From: a virus
IMG/VR virus record: IMGVR_UViG_3300044630_003177
Location: 1-22,794 of that record
DNA length: 22,794 bases
Strand: one strand, 5' to 3'
The position numbers and the translations under genes are program-made. Under the pieces are notes generated by a model that was not told the DNA's origin, made no database searches, and worked only from the letters and a program-made list of their open reading frames with translations. The first letter of the stretch is position 1. Each line of letters opens with the position of its first letter. This document shows, piece by piece, positions 2 through 14,117 of this stretch.

Positions 2-310
2 CTTGACCGTGACCAATCCTGCTGGCATTGTGGGGCTGATACAGACCTCATACCTCACCACAGGATAAACCGAGGCATGGGCGGTTCAAAAGCCCGCCAC
101 GAGCCTTCTAACATCATTGTGATGTGTTCTAGGGTCAATGGGCTGATGGAATCTGATCCGATCGTGGCAACTATGGCACGAGAGTTCGGTTGGAAACTTG
201 AATCATGGCAAAAACCTGAAGATGTGCCTGTGTATCATCTTGTAGAGGTGCAATGGTTCAAAATAGAAAAATACGAAAGGGTAGTTTATGAAAATAGGTT
301 CTCTATTTAG
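2..310 (+). CDS. HNH endonuclease, C-terminal part (5' end outside window)
   Basis: The reading frame is open from the first bases of the window, so the gene begins upstream. The visible start carries a CxxC knuckle (CWHCG), then a PHHRINRG histidine motif and further on IIVMCSRVNGLMES. This order of Cys pair, His-His-Arg and a downstream Cys...Asn is what small phage HNH nucleases show; HNH proteins nick or cut DNA using one metal ion. The last 40 residues are not recognisable. The stop lies inside the next gene, so the two overlap by 23 bases and are probably co-translated. A recombination-associated HNH protein is equally possible. The exact role (homing, packaging or replication nuclease) cannot be told from the fragment. 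Confidence 0.72.
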   Translation, partial: LDRDQSCWHCGADTDLIPHHRINRGMGGSKARHEPSNIIVMCSRVNGLMESDPIVATMAREFGWKLESWQKPEDVPVYHLVEVQWFKIEKYERVVYENRFSI

Positions 311-5570: not shown

Positions 5571-5795
5571 ATGTTAGAAGATCTACAAATTCCTGAACGC
5601 TCATACAACTGTAAAGTTGAGCAGCTCAAAGAAGAACTATCACCAAGTGACCACAAGATCCTGTTGGATGCTGTAATGAATCCGGCATGGACTCAAGTTG
5701 GTTTGCAGTCGGCTTTGCGTGAGAAGGGCATCATTTTGTCTGCTTCAACAATCAAGCGTCACCGAACGAGAGTATGTTCATGCTGGAAGATCTAA
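5571..5795 (+). CDS. Small helix-turn-helix protein, 74 aa
   Basis: ATG 5571 follows the strong AGGGGGAAG ribosome binding site. The core LSPSDHKILLDAVMNPAWTQVGLQSALREKGIILSASTIKRHRTRVCSCWKI reads as a compact helix-turn-helix (split here: DHKILLDAVM, VGLQSALREKG, SASTIKRHR) with a CxC tail. Proteins of this type, ending in RHRxxxCxC, usually sit directly before a metallophosphoesterase in actinophages, as here. Probably a DNA-binding protein; target unknown. The 3' end overlaps the next gene by 22 bases. Confidence 0.68.
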   Translation: MLEDLQIPERSYNCKVEQLKEELSPSDHKILLDAVMNPAWTQVGLQSALREKGIILSASTIKRHRTRVCSCWKI

Positions 5796-8586: not shown

Positions 8587-8915
8587 TGGGTAAGTTTCCA
8601 AAACCGTGCCTAGACTGTGGCCGTCTAACAACACTCGGTAACCGATGCCAAGAACACAAACTTTTGGTCGAACGCCTACATGACGCTAAACGAGCGCAAA
8701 TAAAAAAAGAAACGGGTCAGTATTCTGGTGCATACCGGAAACGGGCAGCTTTGGTTCGCGCTACCGCTTTGGTTTGCCATTTATGCGGTGACGGGTTTCG
8801 GGCTTCTGATCCGTGGGTTGCTGACCATGTGGATCCGGCTACTCATGGCGATGAAGCTGAGTTGCGGGCAGCTCACCGTTCTTGTAACGCTAAACGGGGT
8901 AATAAACCGTTGTAA
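8586..8915 (+). CDS. HNH endonuclease, 109 aa
   Basis: The start overlaps the phosphomannomutase stop (TGATG). An N-terminal Cys/His cluster (PCLDCGRLTTLGNRCQEH, residues about 7-24) is followed by a basic helix and a complete HNH core: VCHLCGDGF (CxxC), ADHVDPATHGDEAELRAAHRSC and NAKRGNKPL. Order and spacing match phage HNH proteins, which in many genomes lie near the terminase and assist packaging. Here the island separates it from the terminase by almost 5 kb. The stop is immediately followed by the TTTGGT array. Confidence 0.87.
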   Translation: MGKFPKPCLDCGRLTTLGNRCQEHKLLVERLHDAKRAQIKKETGQYSGAYRKRAALVRATALVCHLCGDGFRASDPWVADHVDPATHGDEAELRAAHRSCNAKRGNKPL

Positions 8916-9200
8916 CATTTGGTCAAAATTTGGTCGGCATTTGGTTCGGTCATTTGGTCAAAATTTGGTAGATTTGGTTTAGCCGTCAAACCCATGCATG
9001 TAAACGCCCTGGTTTGGCGGTTTTGCCTTTTGGTTCGGTATTTGGTTCATTTGGTTTGGTTGAACATTTGGTCAAAATTTGGTTTTTTGGTTGATTTGGT
9101 TCGGTCAAGCATTTGGTTCGAATTTGGTCATTTCGTCATTTGGTTGAAATTTGGTTCTTTTGGTTATTTGGTTCGGTTTTGGTTCTTGATCAAATTTGGT
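8916..9200 (+). repeat. TTTGGT array, 22 copies, non-coding
   Basis: TTTGGT occurs 22 times in 285 bases on the + strand and hardly ever as its complement, giving extreme G/T strand asymmetry. A 19-mer CATTTGGTCAAAATTTGGT is present three times exactly (8916-8934, 8951-8969, 9065-9083). Spacing is irregular (about 5 to 12 bases), unlike CRISPR or a simple tandem repeat. It begins one base after the HNH stop codon. An interruption at 8981-9020 contains GCATGTAAACGC, also found before the late genes. Function unknown. Confidence 0.9.
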
Positions 9201-9333
9201 CACTTGGTCAAGCTCCGATAACCGCCCAGGCACGGGGCCGAAACCCCGAAGATTCACCCCGCCGGATCGCGCCCGTATTGCTCTAGCTGCCAACTTGCGG
9301 GGCATGCCCAGGCGGGAGCATGTTTGCGACACG
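9201..9333. other. C-rich spacer, no gene
   Basis: After the array the composition flips to C-rich. It contains CCGCCCAGG (9222-9230), a motif that returns four more times in the other two island spacers, a hairpin CGGGG/CCCCG (around 9233-9248) and a GCGACACGCC block (9326-9335) that is repeated before the second island promoter. I see no coding sequence here. Confidence 0.6.
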
Positions 9334-9336
9334 CCA

Positions 9337-9389
9337 GAAAAAAAGTTTTACGAAAATACTTGACACGCTCCGAATGTTGCCCCCAGAAT
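9337..9389 (+). promoter_or_regulatory. Island promoter 1 (A-tract, TTGACA, CAGAAT)
   Basis: A GAAAAAAA tract (UP-element-like) is followed by TTGACA (9360-9365), an 18-base spacer and CAGAAT (9384-9389). The same layout with the same spacer length recurs at 11897-11946. The first gene of island operon 1 starts 45 bases further on, behind the leader CGAAGGGAATCAAAAAATG. Confidence 0.65.
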
Positions 9390-9433: not shown

Positions 9434-9880
9434 ATGCCGTTACCAACTATTTACGCCGAACGGGTATGGCCCTCTGGTGCTATCCGGCTTCACGGGTTGC
9501 ATGAGTCACGCCTATTTTTGGGCTACACGCTTAGGGAAGCTAAACGGGCTTACCGTGACGAATTCCGCAAACTAAACGGCGGGGATGAATTCAAGAATGC
9601 TAAAGGGGAACTTACGCCCTATGCGTTCGCTTGCGGGTATGTTGAAACTCACGGGAGATTCCGGCTTCACCGTGACGGGGCCGCCTATGTTGTTGACGGG
9701 CTTTTATTTCGTGAATCGTTCGCCACACTCACCGAAGCCCGTAGAGCTGCCCGCCGTCTATCGAAGGGGCGTTCTAAATGCTGTAACGCTGTAGTTTTGT
9801 GGCTTCCGTGTTCGGGGTGCGGTATCGCTAACGATCGCCACGAATTCGGCACTTGCCAAAAATGCGGGGGTGATGCATAG
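9434..9880 (+). CDS. Hypothetical protein with C-terminal zinc ribbon, 148 aa
   Basis: ATG 9434 follows GAAGGGAA at the usual distance; the same leader precedes the first large gene of island operon 2. The first 100 residues mix beta and helix (IYAERVWPSGAIRLHGLHESR, YTLREAKRAYRDEFRKLNG) with no recognised domain. The end is a cysteine cluster (CCNAVVLWLPCSGCG ... TCQKCGGDA, about 118-148) giving a probable zinc ribbon. The basic central part (ARRAARRLSKGRSK) together with the ribbon suggests nucleic-acid binding. First gene of island operon 1; its stop overlaps the next GTG. Confidence 0.7.
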   Translation: MPLPTIYAERVWPSGAIRLHGLHESRLFLGYTLREAKRAYRDEFRKLNGGDEFKNAKGELTPYAFACGYVETHGRFRLHRDGAAYVVDGLLFRESFATLTEARRAARRLSKGRSKCCNAVVLWLPCSGCGIANDRHEFGTCQKCGGDA

Positions 9881-10059
9881 TGACCGCCGAAACATTCGCG
9901 GCCATTTTCACGAAACACGGCGACGCGTGGAATTTTTGGGGAGCGTTCACCGATGCGGAACACGCCCGCCAGAATGTTCAAGCTTTTCTTTTGGCTAATC
10001 CGGCATGGAAGCCCGAAGATTTCGAAACCCGCATTTTGCCATTCGGCACGATGCTTTAG
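9880..10059 (+). CDS. Hypothetical protein, 59 aa
   Basis: GTG 9880 overlaps the preceding stop (TAGTG). The translation MTAETFAAIFTKHGDAW... contains helix-forming sequence with aromatic residues (WNFWGAFTDAEHARQNVQAFLLANPAWKPEDFE). No domain recognised. Supported by coupling to the upstream gene, by codon use like its neighbours, and by a ribosome binding site for the next gene just after its stop. Confidence 0.6.
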   Translation: MTAETFAAIFTKHGDAWNFWGAFTDAEHARQNVQAFLLANPAWKPEDFETRILPFGTML

Positions 10060-10075
10060 TGAAGGGAAGAAAAAA

Positions 10076-10375
10076 ATGAAACACGAAGGATATTTAGAAA
10101 CCTATAAAACGGGCGGATTTTGTTCGTTCGTCTGGTATCAAATTGTTGAAAAAAATGGCGGGTTCCAGGTTGAATTCCAAGAATCCGGCAACTCAGAACC
10201 GAACGGTTACGGGTTCGCCGTGTTCAACACTCTAGGGGCCGCCCTAATGTATCTAGCTCTAGCTGCCGATACGGTTGCGAGTGATGGAACTCTAACCGTT
10301 GAAGCGTGGAAGCTTGAAGAAGAATTCGGCACGATCGCGGGCCGATATGTAACACACAAAACCGAAGGGAACTAA
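10076..10375 (+). CDS. Hypothetical protein, 99 aa
   Basis: ATG 10076 follows GAAGGGAAG. The protein starts with several short strands (YLETYKTGGFCSFVWYQIVEKNGGF, QVEFQESG) and has a hydrophobic alanine/leucine helix (TLGAALMYLALAADTVA) in the middle, then an acidic helix (VEAWKLEEEFG). The hydrophobic helix is short for a membrane span. Family unknown to me. Confidence 0.65.
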   Translation: MKHEGYLETYKTGGFCSFVWYQIVEKNGGFQVEFQESGNSEPNGYGFAVFNTLGAALMYLALAADTVASDGTLTVEAWKLEEEFGTIAGRYVTHKTEGN

Positions 10376-10381
10376 TCAAAA

Positions 10382-11137
10382 ATGAACACACAAACACACA
10401 CCGAAACCGATGCCGTGATTCTGGGCATGCTTACCGAAAACACGGGCAAAAGTTTTCTTGACTCCGGCGGGGCTTACGGGCGGAATTGGGAACGCAACCA
10501 GGCTAAGGGCGTTGAAGCTTTAGCCGAATTGCCCGCCGTCACTTTTTCGAACGGTTCGCCCGTAATCGCTATGTTCCCGTTCTTGCGTGAACACTTGGAA
10601 TTCGCTGCCGTTCTTGATTCGGCGTGGAGCGTGTTCGATGAAGCCCGCCCCGATGAATCGTGGCTAAGTAATCTCGAAGAATTTTTCGACACTCTAGGCG
10701 TTCCGGCAGAAGGGGAGTTCTATTCGGAAGCCCGTTGGTCACTCAACACTTACAATTCGGAATATTGCTTACTCGCCCAGACTCTACAATTTAGCTTTTT
10801 CGGTTTTGGCGGTAACGATTACATAGCTCTACAAATTCACGGCGGTTGCGATGTTCGGGGCGGTTACACGAAGCCCCGAATTTTCTTGATCAAAACTAGC
10901 CGTGAAGATTTCTATCTATCGGCGGAATCGGCACGGGTTACATGCTCTAGCTGCAACCTAGAAATAGATTTTTCACCTAACGGTTTAGAAATTGAAACTA
11001 GCAAAATGAAACCCGAAGAAGCCGAAAAATTTGAACGCCTAGAAATTCAAGAAATTCGTGAATGGTTCTGGGATGGCAACACCGAAAACACTTGCCCGAA
11101 TTGTGGCAACTCCGGCACGATCGCGGGGAGCAACTAG
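10382..11137 (+). CDS. Conserved phage protein of unknown function (NTGxxFLDSGGAYGRxWxRNQ family), 251 aa
   Basis: Near the N-terminus it carries LTENTGKSFLDSGGAYGR followed by NWERNQ (about 17-40). This segment I recognise from uncharacterised proteins of phages and large viruses of aquatic microbes; no function is established. The middle is acidic and aromatic-rich, and two cysteine pairs (CSSCNLEIDF about 184-193; CPNCGNSG about 239-246) can form a split zinc ribbon at the end. The gene starts six bases after the preceding stop, with GAAGGGAA upstream reading across that stop. Its stop overlaps the next GTG. Confidence 0.72.
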   Translation: MNTQTHTETDAVILGMLTENTGKSFLDSGGAYGRNWERNQAKGVEALAELPAVTFSNGSPVIAMFPFLREHLEFAAVLDSAWSVFDEARPDESWLSNLEEFFDTLGVPAEGEFYSEARWSLNTYNSEYCLLAQTLQFSFFGFGGNDYIALQIHGGCDVRGGYTKPRIFLIKTSREDFYLSAESARVTCSSCNLEIDFSPNGLEIETSKMKPEEAEKFERLEIQEIREWFWDGNTENTCPNCGNSGTIAGSN

Positions 11138-11232
11138 TGAACATGTTGGGAGCAATTCTTAAGGGCATTTTCGTTTTCGTTATCGCTATCGGGCTATCCA
11201 TGTTCGCCATGATTTTCGGTAGCAAGCGATGA
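11137..11232 (+). CDS. Single-span membrane peptide, 31 aa
   Basis: GTG 11137 overlaps the previous stop (TAGTG) and its own stop overlaps the next ATG (ATGA). The peptide is one hydrophobic helix (ILKGIFVFVIAIGLSMFAMIF) with a basic end (GSKR). Similar tiny membrane proteins recur at 11988 and 12889 in this island. Too short for homology; the overlaps on both sides support translation. Confidence 0.55.
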   Translation: MNMLGAILKGIFVFVIAIGLSMFAMIFGSKR

Positions 11233-11456
11233 ACTACTACACGGCGCAAATTCTTACCCGTGAAGGGTTCGAAGAAGAGTATTTAGAAGCCGAAACCGCT
11301 GCCGAAGCTATCGCCCAGGTGCGGGCCATGTTCGGTTATGACTTGGTTTCGGTTGCTATCCGCAAACAACTATATAAAGAATGGCGGTGCAATTTGACCG
11401 TGGCGGGCGTGTGCCATGTTACTCATGGCGGGAAGCATGCCCCGCTAACGGCGTAA
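11229..11456 (+). CDS. Hypothetical protein, 75 aa
   Basis: ATG 11229 overlaps the preceding stop (ATGA). N-terminal pattern NYYTAQILTREGFEEEYLEAETAAEAIAQVRAMFG is a strand, a charged turn and a helix; the start of the gene at 12116 (TYQVTRTETVTVTARNEEQAEEFA) has the same strand-turn-helix plan, so the two may share a small alpha/beta domain. The end (CNLTVAGVCHVTHGGKHAP) has two cysteines and two histidines that could bind metal. Last gene of island operon 1; a strong terminator follows 14 bases after the stop. Confidence 0.62.
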   Translation: MNYYTAQILTREGFEEEYLEAETAAEAIAQVRAMFGYDLVSVAIRKQLYKEWRCNLTVAGVCHVTHGGKHAPLTA

Positions 11457-11470
11457 CCCGTTCAAGCTTT

Positions 11471-11503
11471 AGCCCCGTAGCCGATTCGGTTGCGGGGCTT
11501 TTG
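11471..11503 (+). terminator. Intrinsic terminator of island operon 1
   Basis: AGCCCCG (11471-11477) pairs with CGGGGCT (11493-11499), with an inner CCG/CGG stem, followed by TTTTGCTTTT. A clear rho-independent terminator 14 bases after the stop codon. Confidence 0.88.
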
Positions 11504-11640
11504 CTTTTGGTTTCGGTTCTTGGTTTCGGTTCTGGTTATTCGGTTCGGTCATTCCGTTCGGTTCTTGGTTTTGGTTTTTGATCAAGGGGATTCGGTTCCG
11601 GCGGGTTCGGTTCTTGGTTCGGTTCTTGGTTCTGGCTTCT
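11504..11640 (+). repeat. Second G/T-rich array (GGTTC repeats), non-coding
   Basis: GGTTC, TCGGT and TTGGT words alternate irregularly through the stretch on the + strand. It shares GGTTTTGGTTnTTGATCAA (TTGATCAA at 11578-11585) and GGTTATTnGGTTCGGT with the 8916-9200 array, so the two arrays look homologous, with this copy shifted toward GGTTC. No gene is supported in it. Confidence 0.82.
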
Positions 11641-11987: not shown

Positions 11988-12089
11988 ATGAGCAACAAAA
12001 TCGCAACCGCACTCATGGCGGTAATCGCATTTTCACTAATCACCGCCACGCTCTCGCTAATGCTCTGGGCGTTCGGGCTAATCAAGTAA
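11988..12089 (+). CDS. Single-span membrane peptide, 33 aa
   Basis: ATG 11988 follows CGAAGGGAACAAAA. The peptide (IATALMAVIAFSLITATLSL, then MLWAFGLIK) is almost entirely hydrophobic, one or at most two short helices. It is the first gene of island operon 2, and the next gene's ribosome binding site starts just after the stop. Function unknown. Confidence 0.6.
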   Translation: MSNKIATALMAVIAFSLITATLSLMLWAFGLIK

Positions 12090-12115
12090 CCAAACAAAAC
12101 GAAGGGAATCAAAAA

Positions 12116-12892
12116 ATGCCAACTTACCAAGTAACCAGAACCGAAACCGTGACCGTTACGGCACGGAACGAAGAGCAAGCCGAAGAGTTCGCCATTGAGA
12201 AAATGCAAGAACTCCCTAACGGCGATTATGAAATTGAAGCCATTACGCCCGCCCCGAAATTCGCCGAAATCGTGGAAGCTCTGAACGCTCTGGGAGTGTC
12301 TGCCTATGTTGATGACTACAAAAACAACACTTACGATTTCATTCGCATGAGTTCCGTTGAGAGTCACCCCGATGATGACCCGAATCACTTTTTGCTTTTG
12401 CCGTCACTTGATGACGAAGAAGAGTTCAACGGGGTTGCCTATGAGATTTACACGAATGATTGCTACACCGAAAAAGCGTCATTCCCCGCCGAATTGAACA
12501 CCCGTGTTCTGGCGCAACTAATCGCCAAAAAGCTCCGTCAAATTGCTCCCGCCAAAATGGTTGCAAGCATGGAAGAAATCGGTTTTCTACTCAAGCAAGC
12601 GGGCTTAACCGTTAGCGTCGAATCGCAAGAATGGCGTGGCATGCCCGCATGGATTTCTATCGGCGAAACCGTGGATTTCTACGCCGATGGAACGCCAGAC
12701 TATTTCGCCGAATTCACGCTTTACCAGAACCTAAACGAAAACGGCGATGCCGTAGACGGCACGGGGTTTCACCTATGCCGTGGCGATGACGAAGCCGATG
12801 TAGTTCTACAAATTCCGAACATCCCCGCCATGCGTGTAGTGTCGCAAACTATTTGGGCTATGGCGCAAGTTGCTAAGGGCGTGACCGAATGA
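12116..12892 (+). CDS. Hypothetical protein, 258 aa
   Basis: ATG 12116 sits behind CGAAGGGAATCAAAAA, the same leader as the gene at 9434; the frame is open further upstream but that part is low-complexity C-rich sequence. The N-terminus (TYQVTRTETVTVTARNEEQAEEFAIEKMQEL) is a strand-turn-helix unit like that of the gene at 11229. The rest alternates acidic helices and strands (FAEIVEALNALGVSAYVDDYKNN, MEEIGFLLKQAGLTVSVESQEW, FAEFTLYQNLNENGDAVDG) and looks like two related halves: a helix ending in LNALGVSAYVDD resembles a later one ending in LKQAGLTVSVES, so an internal duplication is possible. No function recognised. Confidence 0.72.
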   Translation: MPTYQVTRTETVTVTARNEEQAEEFAIEKMQELPNGDYEIEAITPAPKFAEIVEALNALGVSAYVDDYKNNTYDFIRMSSVESHPDDDPNHFLLLPSLDDEEEFNGVAYEIYTNDCYTEKASFPAELNTRVLAQLIAKKLRQIAPAKMVASMEEIGFLLKQAGLTVSVESQEWRGMPAWISIGETVDFYADGTPDYFAEFTLYQNLNENGDAVDGTGFHLCRGDDEADVVLQIPNIPAMRVVSQTIWAMAQVAKGVTE

Positions 12893-13038
12893 CCCGCCTA
12901 GTGTTCGCACTCTTCACGATCGTTGGAGCTTCTGCAACTCTGGGGGCGTTCATCCACGGCACGAACGCCATGCCGTCACTCTGGCTTTTAGGGCTATCGT
13001 TCGCCATGCTCTACGCCACGAAGGGGGTGACCAAATGA
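12889..13038 (+). CDS. Small membrane protein, 49 aa
   Basis: ATG 12889 overlaps the preceding stop (ATGA) and the stop overlaps the next ATG. Two hydrophobic segments (VFALFTIVGASATLGAFI and LWLLGLSFAMLYA) joined by HGTNAMPS make a membrane hairpin with a lysine at each side of the C-terminus. Function unknown. Confidence 0.62.
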   Translation: MTRLVFALFTIVGASATLGAFIHGTNAMPSLWLLGLSFAMLYATKGVTK

Positions 13039-13181
13039 CCGAAACCGAAACCGTAAAAGCCCTAGAAAAGTTGGCGCTTCAAATTGACGAACTGAGGGCG
13101 CAAATGCCCGAAGATTCAAAACGCTTAGAACAATTGCAGGATGCTTATTACCTAGTTCGGGATGCTATCGAAAACGAGTAG
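13035..13181 (+). CDS. Small coiled-coil protein, 48 aa
   Basis: ATG 13035 overlaps the preceding stop (ATGA). The protein is acidic and helical, with heptad-like hydrophobics (ALEKLALQIDELRAQM, RLEQLQDAYYLVRDAIENE), so a short coiled coil is likely. Last gene of island operon 2; a strong terminator follows 13 bases later. Function unknown. Confidence 0.62.
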   Translation: MTETETVKALEKLALQIDELRAQMPEDSKRLEQLQDAYYLVRDAIENE

Positions 13182-13194
13182 CCCCGCCAGAATC

Positions 13195-13226
13195 AACCCC
13201 CGCCCGAAACACGGCGGGGGTTTTTT
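13195..13226 (+). terminator. Intrinsic terminator of island operon 2
   Basis: AACCCCCGCC (13195-13204) pairs perfectly with GGCGGGGGTT (13213-13222) around an eight-base loop, followed by further T residues. Strong rho-independent terminator. Confidence 0.92.
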
Positions 13227-13483
13227 CATGCCCGCCACGGGGCGCATACGCCCGCCATGACCCCGCCACGGAGTGACCCCGCCCCCGTCACCCCGCCCGT
13301 GACCCCGAAGCTTCAACCCCGCCCCCGCCATGACCCGCCCAGGGTGCGCCCAGCTGCGGGGCCGGTGACCTAAAACGCCCCTAAACGCCCGCTAGACGGG
13401 TTTTCATAACCAAAACGGGGAATCACCCGCCCAGGCACACTCAACCCCGCCACGGGGCGCACACGCCCGCACCCCGCAGCTAT
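13227..13483. repeat. C-rich spacer with 25-bp direct repeat and CCGCCCAGG words
   Basis: A 25-base block around CCGCCACGGGGCGCA occurs at 13231-13255 and 13446-13470 with one mismatch (T/C). CCGCCCAGG occurs at 13335-13343 and 13427-13435, TGACCC four times. A bulged hairpin AAACGCCCG/CGGGTTTT lies at about 13382-13404. No coding sequence is seen. As the spacer before the terminase, it is also where a cos or pac site could lie, but I cannot identify one. Confidence 0.75.
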
Positions 13484-13584
13484 TCGAACAAAAATTCGCA
13501 TGTAAACGCTTACAAAATCGAAAAAGTGTTCGTTCGAACGGATTTTCGAAGGGGGGGGATGGGGCCAATCGAACAAATGTTCGA
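13484..13584. promoter_or_regulatory. LexA (SOS) box cluster before the late operon
   Basis: The actinobacterial LexA site is TCGAAC-N4-GTTCGA. A perfect match lies at 13569-13584 (spacer AAAT). Three poorer sites precede it: 13484-13499 (TCGAAC, AAAA, ATTCGC; 10 of 12), 13518-13533 (TCGAAA, AAGT, GTTCGT; 10 of 12) and 13534-13549 (TCGAAC, GGAT, TTTCGA; 11 of 12). The second and third abut. The terminase start is 84 bases beyond the perfect box, so LexA could hold the late promoter shut until DNA damage. Confidence 0.72.
13501..13514. promoter_or_regulatory. Palindrome TGTAAACGCTTACA
   Basis: Inverted repeat with a CG-containing centre, the general form of LacI/CcpA-family operators. A 12-of-14 match, TGTAAACTTTTACA, lies before the capsid gene (19518-19531). 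Embedded between the first two LexA-like sites. The cognate regulator is unknown. Confidence 0.5.
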
Positions 13585-13667
13585 AAGTAGCACACCCCGC
13601 CCGCCATAGAACGCACATTCCCGCAGTTCAGACCTTTTCGGGCTATGCTTGTGGTGAAGGGAGTTTT

Positions 13668-14117
13668 ATGCCTAATCCACCGAAACCGTTGGAGCAGAAA
13701 CGCTTGACGGGTAATCCTGGTAAACGAGCTTTGCCGAAAGATGGGGCGATTGTGGTGATTGCTCAGGTTGATAATCCTCAGCCGTTGCGACCGTTGCAGG
13801 ATGCGGGGTTGGCCTTTTGGGATGAGGCTTGGGGTAAGGGTCAGTTGTGGTTGGGTCGCACGGATAAGTGGCTTGTGCAGCTGACGGCTGAGATGTTTGA
13901 TGAGCGTGAGGAGTTGCGGGGTATTGTTGCTGACCGGACTGCTGTGGGGGATAAGGATGCTTGGCGTGATCGTAGGCAGTTGCGTGACCTTGAGCGTTCG
14001 ATTGTTGCGAACTTGTCGTTGTTGGCTTGGACTCCTGTGGATCGTTCTCGTTATGGGTTGGCTGAGGTGAAGGCTAAGTCGAAGTTGGCGGAGTTTATGG
14101 AGAAGCATGGCAATTAG
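13668..14117 (+). CDS. terS: Terminase small subunit (P27 family)
   Basis: This 149-residue protein recognises the packaging start on concatemeric phage DNA and hands it to the large subunit. The opening PNPPKPLEQKRLTGNPGKRALPKD is diagnostic of the P27 (HK97-like) small terminase family, followed by LQDAGLAFWDEAWGKG and a long helical region (VQLTAEMFDEREELRGIV, RDRRQLRDLERSIVANLS) ending in RYGLAEVKAKSKLAEFM. ATG 13668 follows GAAGGGAG. The large subunit lies downstream but is separated by an adenine methyltransferase. First gene after the LexA-box cluster; a -10-like TATGCT at 13644-13649 has no convincing -35. Confidence 0.92.
   Translation: MPNPPKPLEQKRLTGNPGKRALPKDGAIVVIAQVDNPQPLRPLQDAGLAFWDEAWGKGQLWLGRTDKWLVQLTAEMFDEREELRGIVADRTAVGDKDAWRDRRQLRDLERSIVANLSLLAWTPVDRSRYGLAEVKAKSKLAEFMEKHGN

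Follow-up and report, generated by a model that had tools for sequence, protein, structure and literature searches.

A one-directional word, ATYYRGTY, in junction arrays and genes of a tailed-phage family

Repeated signals have been described in phage genomes before, among them stoperators (PMC9283540), lambdoid Chi sites (PMC3784561) and nick sites of the tf type (PMC3517423), two of which have one orientation. Stoperator sites have an asymmetric sequence that points along transcription, and they cease to function on reversal (PMC9283540). Chi sites are recombination hotspots of RecBCD/AddAB, recognized in an orientation-dependent way by a translocating helicase-nuclease. Those of lambdoid phages cluster in the interval from the O gene/ori to terminase/cos (PMC3784561). 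Intergenic repeats are reported for Microbacterium phages of clusters EC, EF/SAS, EG and EI (PMC7302621).

The locus described here belongs to a virus record of 22,794 bases, which was analyzed over its full length (the window) and in which all named genes read rightwards. By the large terminase its closest named phage is Pontimonas phage phiPsal1 (60% identity). In a tailed-phage family whose nearest isolate infects a Microbacteriaceae, the word ATYYRGTY (core TYYRGTY) is a nucleic-acid signal that is under selection and reads in one direction; it is found both as junction arrays ahead of accessory operons and as surplus single copies in genes. We are highly confident that the element is real, conserved and selected, and regard a role as polar signal of a moving machine, on DNA or RNA, as probable.

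Like lambdoid Chi, the word is short, asymmetric, G/T-rich, over-represented in the phage genome and concentrated between ori and cos (in the CT/TT class, not in the TCGG class). Unlike Chi, two of its three forms have no excess in the sampled hosts, it is packed at operon junctions into dense arrays with as many as 22 copies, and its class varies by phage lineage. With the stoperators of Cluster A mycobacteriophages it has in common the asymmetry, a single orientation to transcription, tens of copies per genome and lineage specificity, but those are mainly intergenic 13-mers with a phage repressor, whereas we found a 7-8-mer (7-mer core), many sites within genes and no repressor or integrase in 17 genomes. 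The nick sites of tf, phiKMV and T5 are also phage-specific words on one strand; here, in contrast, the copies are far more numerous, form arrays, are at chance level on the other strand and are known from sequence alone. Finally, the Microbacterium phage repeats share with ours the repeated motifs, the host family and, for some, an orientation; most of those described lie upstream of start codons, once per gap and with other sequences, while the arrays described here follow stop codons.

Only a few hosts are known to have short polar signals for moving machines, such as Chi and KOPS. Literature listings on Chi in actinobacteria (AdnAB) and on strand-biased phage oligonucleotides gave no description of this signal. 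A lineage-variable signal that is legible in the sequence itself offers a way to study how phages keep their ends safe, distinguish their own DNA from that of the host and exchange accessory operons, and the TYYRGTY class is a sequence handle for grouping uncultured phages that probably infect small-genome Microbacteriaceae.

The two arrays of the window

From left to right, the window holds an O-like gene, an HNH gene, array 1, accessory operon 1, a terminator, array 2 and accessory operon 2, and then, after a gap free of units, the small and large terminase genes. Genes were called with our own simple caller, and the ORF at 32677 of one relative (G001) and similar calls within arrays are spurious.

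1755-2585, + strand: O-like replication initiation gene, holding a 21-bp tandem repeat at 2039-2115
8589-8915, + strand: HNH endonuclease gene directly 5' of array 1 (PHROG HNH, E 1.6e-7)
8916-9215, + strand: array 1, with 22 TTTGGT, 24 TYYRGTY and 27 YGGTY on + and 0 on - (motif counts)
9360-9389, + strand: sigma70-like promoter TTGACA-18-CAGAAT past array 1 (consensus match only; shuffles give as many)
9434-11456, + strand: accessory operon 1, small function-unassigned genes including 10382-11137 (PHROG 11344)
11471-11499, + strand: intrinsic-terminator-like hairpin of 13 pairs closing accessory operon 1
11500-11640, + strand: array 2, with 15 YGGTY and 11 TYYRGTY on + and 0 on - (motif counts)
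11988-13181, + strand: accessory operon 2, small function-unassigned genes
13182-13667, + strand: gap before terS, with a terminator-like hairpin at 13195-13222 and 0 array units
13668-14117, + strand: terminase small subunit, terS (phrog_83)

Array 1 had been noticed as 22 strand-biased copies of TTTGGT in a non-coding stretch, and both the density and the bias hold, with 22 copies on + and 0 on - in 8918-9200. Dinucleotide-keeping shuffles of 8916-9215 gave a mean of 1.66 and a maximum of 8 (2000 shuffles), and the 55 matches over the whole window (18.4 expected) were reached by 0 of 100 shuffles. The history of duplication claimed with it is visible in an exact 19-mer, CATTTGGTCAAAATTTGGT, that occurs three times in the window. 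The stretch contains no conserved gene, and the decayed gene that would have refuted the earlier note is not borne out; relatives have a repeat-filled spacer of varying length in the same place, and the open frame at 8919-9221 is for this reason most likely accidental. The second array, which the earlier note had placed at about 11504, is equally one-sided but contains just 2 TTTGGT. The unit is in fact wider than had been thought, TTTGGT being the local version of the conserved asymmetric word ATYYRGTY. The position of the arrays at the front of accessory ("island") operons was correctly seen, and the arrangement is conserved in relatives: the HNH stop codon abuts the array in the window and in related phages, array 2 is placed after the terminator and ahead of the next operon, and the TTGACA context recurs in relatives too. 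To say that such a pattern has no match in ordinary phage regulatory DNA was too strong, given stoperators, lambdoid Chi and tf-type nick sites. A role of the array as a recombination or replication element, or as a protein-binding array, is possible. As a replication origin it was rejected; unlike lambda-type origin iterons it lies outside the O-like gene, and such repeats are found at 2039-2115 instead, where the 21-bp tandem repeat is a candidate lambda-type origin.

Searches of the window for Rfam families and for tRNAs found none, and BLAST against phage records gave 0 matches for the array and 0 for the whole window. Proteins related to that of 10382-11137 (ENTG...LDSGG...HGGCDVRGGYT) are encoded close to the right end in Mycobacterium phages and occur in Gordonia phages as well.

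Arrays and genome ends in related phages

HNH relatives were collected twice (7 loci, then 80 of 195). Regions after the HNH stop were taken from the window, L105 and 77 of the 80 loci (the three with fewer than 100 bases were dropped), 79 in all, of which 61 are non-redundant; the related phages compared are not independent of each other. In the 61 loci, ATYYRGTY was found 191 times on the gene strand and 5 times on the other, against 4.7 expected by shuffles, and 47 of the 61 had at least two copies. In 45 of these 47 the units begin -8 to +15 nt from the stop. The core appears as TCG (88), TTG (49), CTG (40), TCA (7), CCA (5) or CCG (2), i.e., it varies by transitions only at three positions (partly built into the pattern definition), and it is kept across lineages while the spacers change. 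Among 135 unit spacings there are peaks at 11 (40) and 13 (21).

What follows the HNH gene matters. In the two loci where terS comes within 600 bp after the HNH stop, units were absent; the 64 remaining loci considered, 11 in which terS is more distant and 53 more with 1.5 kb or longer of sequence, all had at least one. One locus (L145) has no units at the HNH junction, yet arrays appear further along its contig, and whole contigs carry additional, identically oriented arrays where later operons end; reverse-strand unit clusters numbered 0 in the 17 genomes scanned. Two genomes are considered array-negative (G118 and G119) from 228 and 69 bases after the HNH stop and the lack of any pattern match in the whole contig, while two TCGG genomes counted as array-positive (G012 and G013) have one exact unit after the HNH stop. 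When the DNA pattern was used to scan viral contigs, the matches listed were mostly genes with Ser/Gly/Thr repeats, and L105 was the sole new array among them.

The contigs also tell something about the genome ends. A contig end lies at most 3 kb upstream of TerL in 68 of 80 terminase loci, and in 40 of these 68 the distance is 440-700 bp. CCGCAGTTCA-like DNA, common to most of the ten contig starts listed, is found just before terS and is a candidate cos. These assembly ends suggest fixed ends just ahead of terS, which would therefore place the arrays in the right-end part of the virion genome. The same CCGCAGTTCA-like DNA was seen at the contig ends of L325, L327, L329, L330, L337 and L393 and at the start of L012.

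Several minor features accompany the arrays. Odd unit spacings (11, 13, 15, 21, 25, 27) make up 112 of the 135 in post-HNH arrays, a share that common ancestry may inflate. In L160, L161, L163 and L008 the units are about 25-27 bp apart and alternate with short palindrome-like CCTATATAGG/CCTTAAGG words. Tandem direct repeats of the TAACG type, about 11 bp apart, lie past the array and just 5' of a TTGAC-type promoter in many of L138-L157 and L179-L190. Between the array and the accessory promoter, ca. 100-200 bp past the HNH stop, L169, L177, L193, L200 and others have TCGAAC-N4-GTTCGA boxes that we take to be LexA-like, suggesting that the accessory operon is under SOS control.

The word within genes

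The arrays are no isolated non-coding oddity: coding genes, too, are enriched in the word, with its orientation unchanged. Our null model shuffled synonymous codons within each gene, keeping the protein and the per-gene codon usage; codon-pair bias is not kept, which matters for TTTGGT. Over the right 40% of 13 genomes, coding DNA had 120 copies of the word against 53.6 ± 5.7 (2.24 fold, z 11.7), and the reverse complement of the word showed no excess (46 against 48.0). In the left part of the genomes the excess was smaller (102 against 69.3, z 5.1) and due to ATTCGGTY (43 against 11.2). For TTCGGTY in the six TCGG-class genomes the numbers were 140 against 31.1, raised in all three frames. 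In the genes of the window we found 4 TTTGGTY against 1.9 and 3 TTCGGTY against 2.0; its TTTGGT form is the least informative within genes because some hosts favor TTTGGT anyway.

Coding hexamers were also ranked (whole genomes: six TCGG and 10 CT/TT, i.e., nine plus the window; right and left parts: eight CT/TT). TTCGGT, TCGGTT and TCGGTC occupy ranks 1-3 of 4096 in the six TCGG phages, with ACCGAA at rank 2364. In the right 35% of the eight CT/TT phages TCTGGT is first and CTGGTT second of 4096, in the left 65% TCTGGT is at rank 791, and over whole CT/TT genomes TCTGGT and TTTGGT rank 47 and 255. The coding excess of the CT/TT (CTGG/TTGG) class is found in the final third, from the O-like replication gene to terS, and that of the TCGG class is spread across the whole genome, beyond the ori-to-cos interval. 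Single in-gene sites had no bias towards gene ends.

The class of the array matches that of the coding sites (Spearman rho 0.88 in 16 genomes; array counts are non-coding counts, some outside arrays). Five genomes without junction units had coding ratios of 1.14, 1.25, 1.20, 1.40 and 1.23, and 17 others had 1.06-3.08, which is higher (one-sided Mann-Whitney p 0.003). G002, G007 and G012 are weak exceptions, the first of which has an array yet a ratio of 1.06. At residues identical between related phages, TCGG-class coding sites were kept in 60 of 120 comparisons (50%), against 22-27% for control 7-mers, a retention that a raised equilibrium frequency could by itself explain in part. Reverse-strand genes, too few here and mostly spurious calls, do not separate DNA strand from transcript strand. 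The earlier note would have been refuted by arrays scattered at random in many phage genes. The word is indeed present in many genes, but its distribution is not random, being confined to one strand, matched in class to the arrays and in excess of codon usage.

Possible readers of the word

We put first, as a tentative reading, that ATYYRGTY acts like Chi, because a one-strand, frame-independent and genome-wide excess of a 7-mer resembles the signals of moving machines, because in the CT/TT class it is concentrated between ori and terminase, and because of its orientation relative to the candidate cos. A machine moving with polarity along the phage genome would read the word as DNA: a helicase-nuclease or recombination exonuclease would enter the free right end near cos, run left, meet ATYYRGTY in its active orientation, halt degradation there and begin recombination. 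This could protect and join phage genomes and favor the swapping of accessory operons bordered by arrays, which would be high-efficiency versions of the single sites. The reader may be a host or a phage enzyme, with a specificity that would differ by phage lineage (CTGG, TTGG, TCGG). In favor of Chi-like action are the orientation after the HNH stop and the same-strand coding excess, the first rank of TTCGGT and of TCTGGT (the latter in the right 35%), the match of classes, the retention of coding sites, the contig ends clustered near terS, and a short G/T-rich 7-8-mer in which CTGGT is common to E. coli Chi, GCTGGTGG. The CT/TT excess between the O-like gene and terS recalls the lambdoid distribution (PMC3784561). 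In lambda, active Chi faces cos in the same orientation.

Several observations weaken the Chi-like reading, above all that the sampled hosts show no excess, that the gap next to terS is empty and that the arrays are tied so closely to stop codons and operon borders. A Chi sequence is as a rule more frequent than expected in the genome of its host. The phages probably infect small-genome Microbacteriaceae; in genome collections, the HNH protein had only one relative in a plausible host, a Microbacteriaceae MAG, the second match being a Verrucomicrobia MAG (40%). In 12 Microbacteriaceae genomes (ca. 0.1-0.4 Mb each) TTCGGT and TCTGGT were never among the top 200 of 4096 coding hexamers, their best ranks being 220 and 252, both in G016; this speaks against these genomes only, which may not include the true host. 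A triple-unit array pattern matched 1 of 100 Microbacteriaceae genomes, once. The gap beside terS, which a nuclease from the right end would meet first, has no units in the window, G004, G006 and G007, and a nuclease signal has no need to hug a stop codon. Moreover, the phages encode their own exonuclease of the YqaJ family (15 of 17 by clustering), the TCGG-class excess is genome-wide and G002 has an array without coding excess. It is possible, although we hold it with some doubt, that a phage-encoded machine reads a lineage-specific one-way heptamer, a private Chi- or KOPS-like grammar that is not shared with the host and marks self DNA and the exchange borders of accessory operons. A small HTH protein (window 5571-5795) was rejected as the reader, as it does not discriminate, being present also in phiPsal1 and G015.

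The link to stop codons and operon borders fits a stop of transcription better than it fits Chi. A phage DNA-binding protein on asymmetric sites could stop RNA polymerase from one side, as stoperators do, with arrays that insulate or silence the accessory operons and scattered sites that aid silencing or transcription shut-off. Every site points along transcription, the arrays start at the last stop codon, they are present where an accessory operon follows (64/64) and absent where terS follows directly (0/2), and the specificity varies by lineage; Cluster A actinophages provide a precedent (PMC9283540). Still, we think this explanation unlikely. Single sites lie inside genes without bias towards gene ends, a 7-mer is short for a repressor site (that of L5 is a 13-mer), and in the 17 genomes we found no integrase (0/17 for PF00589 and PF00239) and no repressor above the HTH_3 cut-off (0/17, with weaker matches in 4/17).

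The signal might instead act in RNA, as AUYYRGUY in phage mRNAs bound by a phage RNA-binding protein, nuclease or termination factor, with the arrays as 3' untranslated regions. The strand of the word is the transcript strand, the arrays come directly after stop codons and, wherever a clear intrinsic terminator was seen (10 of 10 loci, one lineage), all 24 units precede it. Array 2 of the window, however, starts past a strong terminator, and we judge this reading decidedly unlikely. The sense-strand C-over-G bubble of Rho (rut) sites was absent from 38 array loci without intrinsic terminator, where C-G was -0.07 at +0..40, -0.05 at +40..80 and near zero beyond. Pairing to the 3' end of 16S rRNA was rejected by reasoning: the Y/R pattern fits, but the commonest variants pair worst.

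Improbable, too, is that the word marks strand-specific nicking by a phage enzyme, for which the neighboring HNH protein might be a candidate; tf, phiKMV and T5 have such nick sites. The word is phage-specific, and in tf the top strand carries all 14 sites (PMC3517423). The HNH gene adjoins array 1 in this set, which is no independent evidence because the set was fetched by HNH, and the same HNH family occurs where arrays and coding excess are absent (phiPsal1, G116-G119). The word is at chance level on the other strand too.

Neutral tandem duplication with codon or oligonucleotide bias is very improbable as a whole and largely refuted for the TCGG and CTGG forms, given a core conserved across lineages while spacers change, an excess in all frames on one strand, the array/coding class match and a TTCGGTY that is not enriched in three hosts, although the exact 19-mer repeats and the 1.3-1.9-fold enrichment of TTTGGT in the genes of the same hosts speak for it; the TTTGGT coding excess alone could be neutral. 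TTTGGT is within the top 200 in hosts G026, G108, G111, G029 and G075, and TTTGGT and TTGGTT rank 4 and 1 in G026 and 7 and 71 in G108, perhaps due to codon context.

Two of these host genomes have a heptamer of their own. ATCGGTG/CACCGAT is raised ca. 3.4 fold over synonymous shuffles in G026 (L247, L263-L282), on both gene strands (159 against 47 and 163 against 46), and is also raised in G108 (L258, L283-L292), with no replication-strand skew. It is possibly an uptake-like or architecture motif of these hosts.
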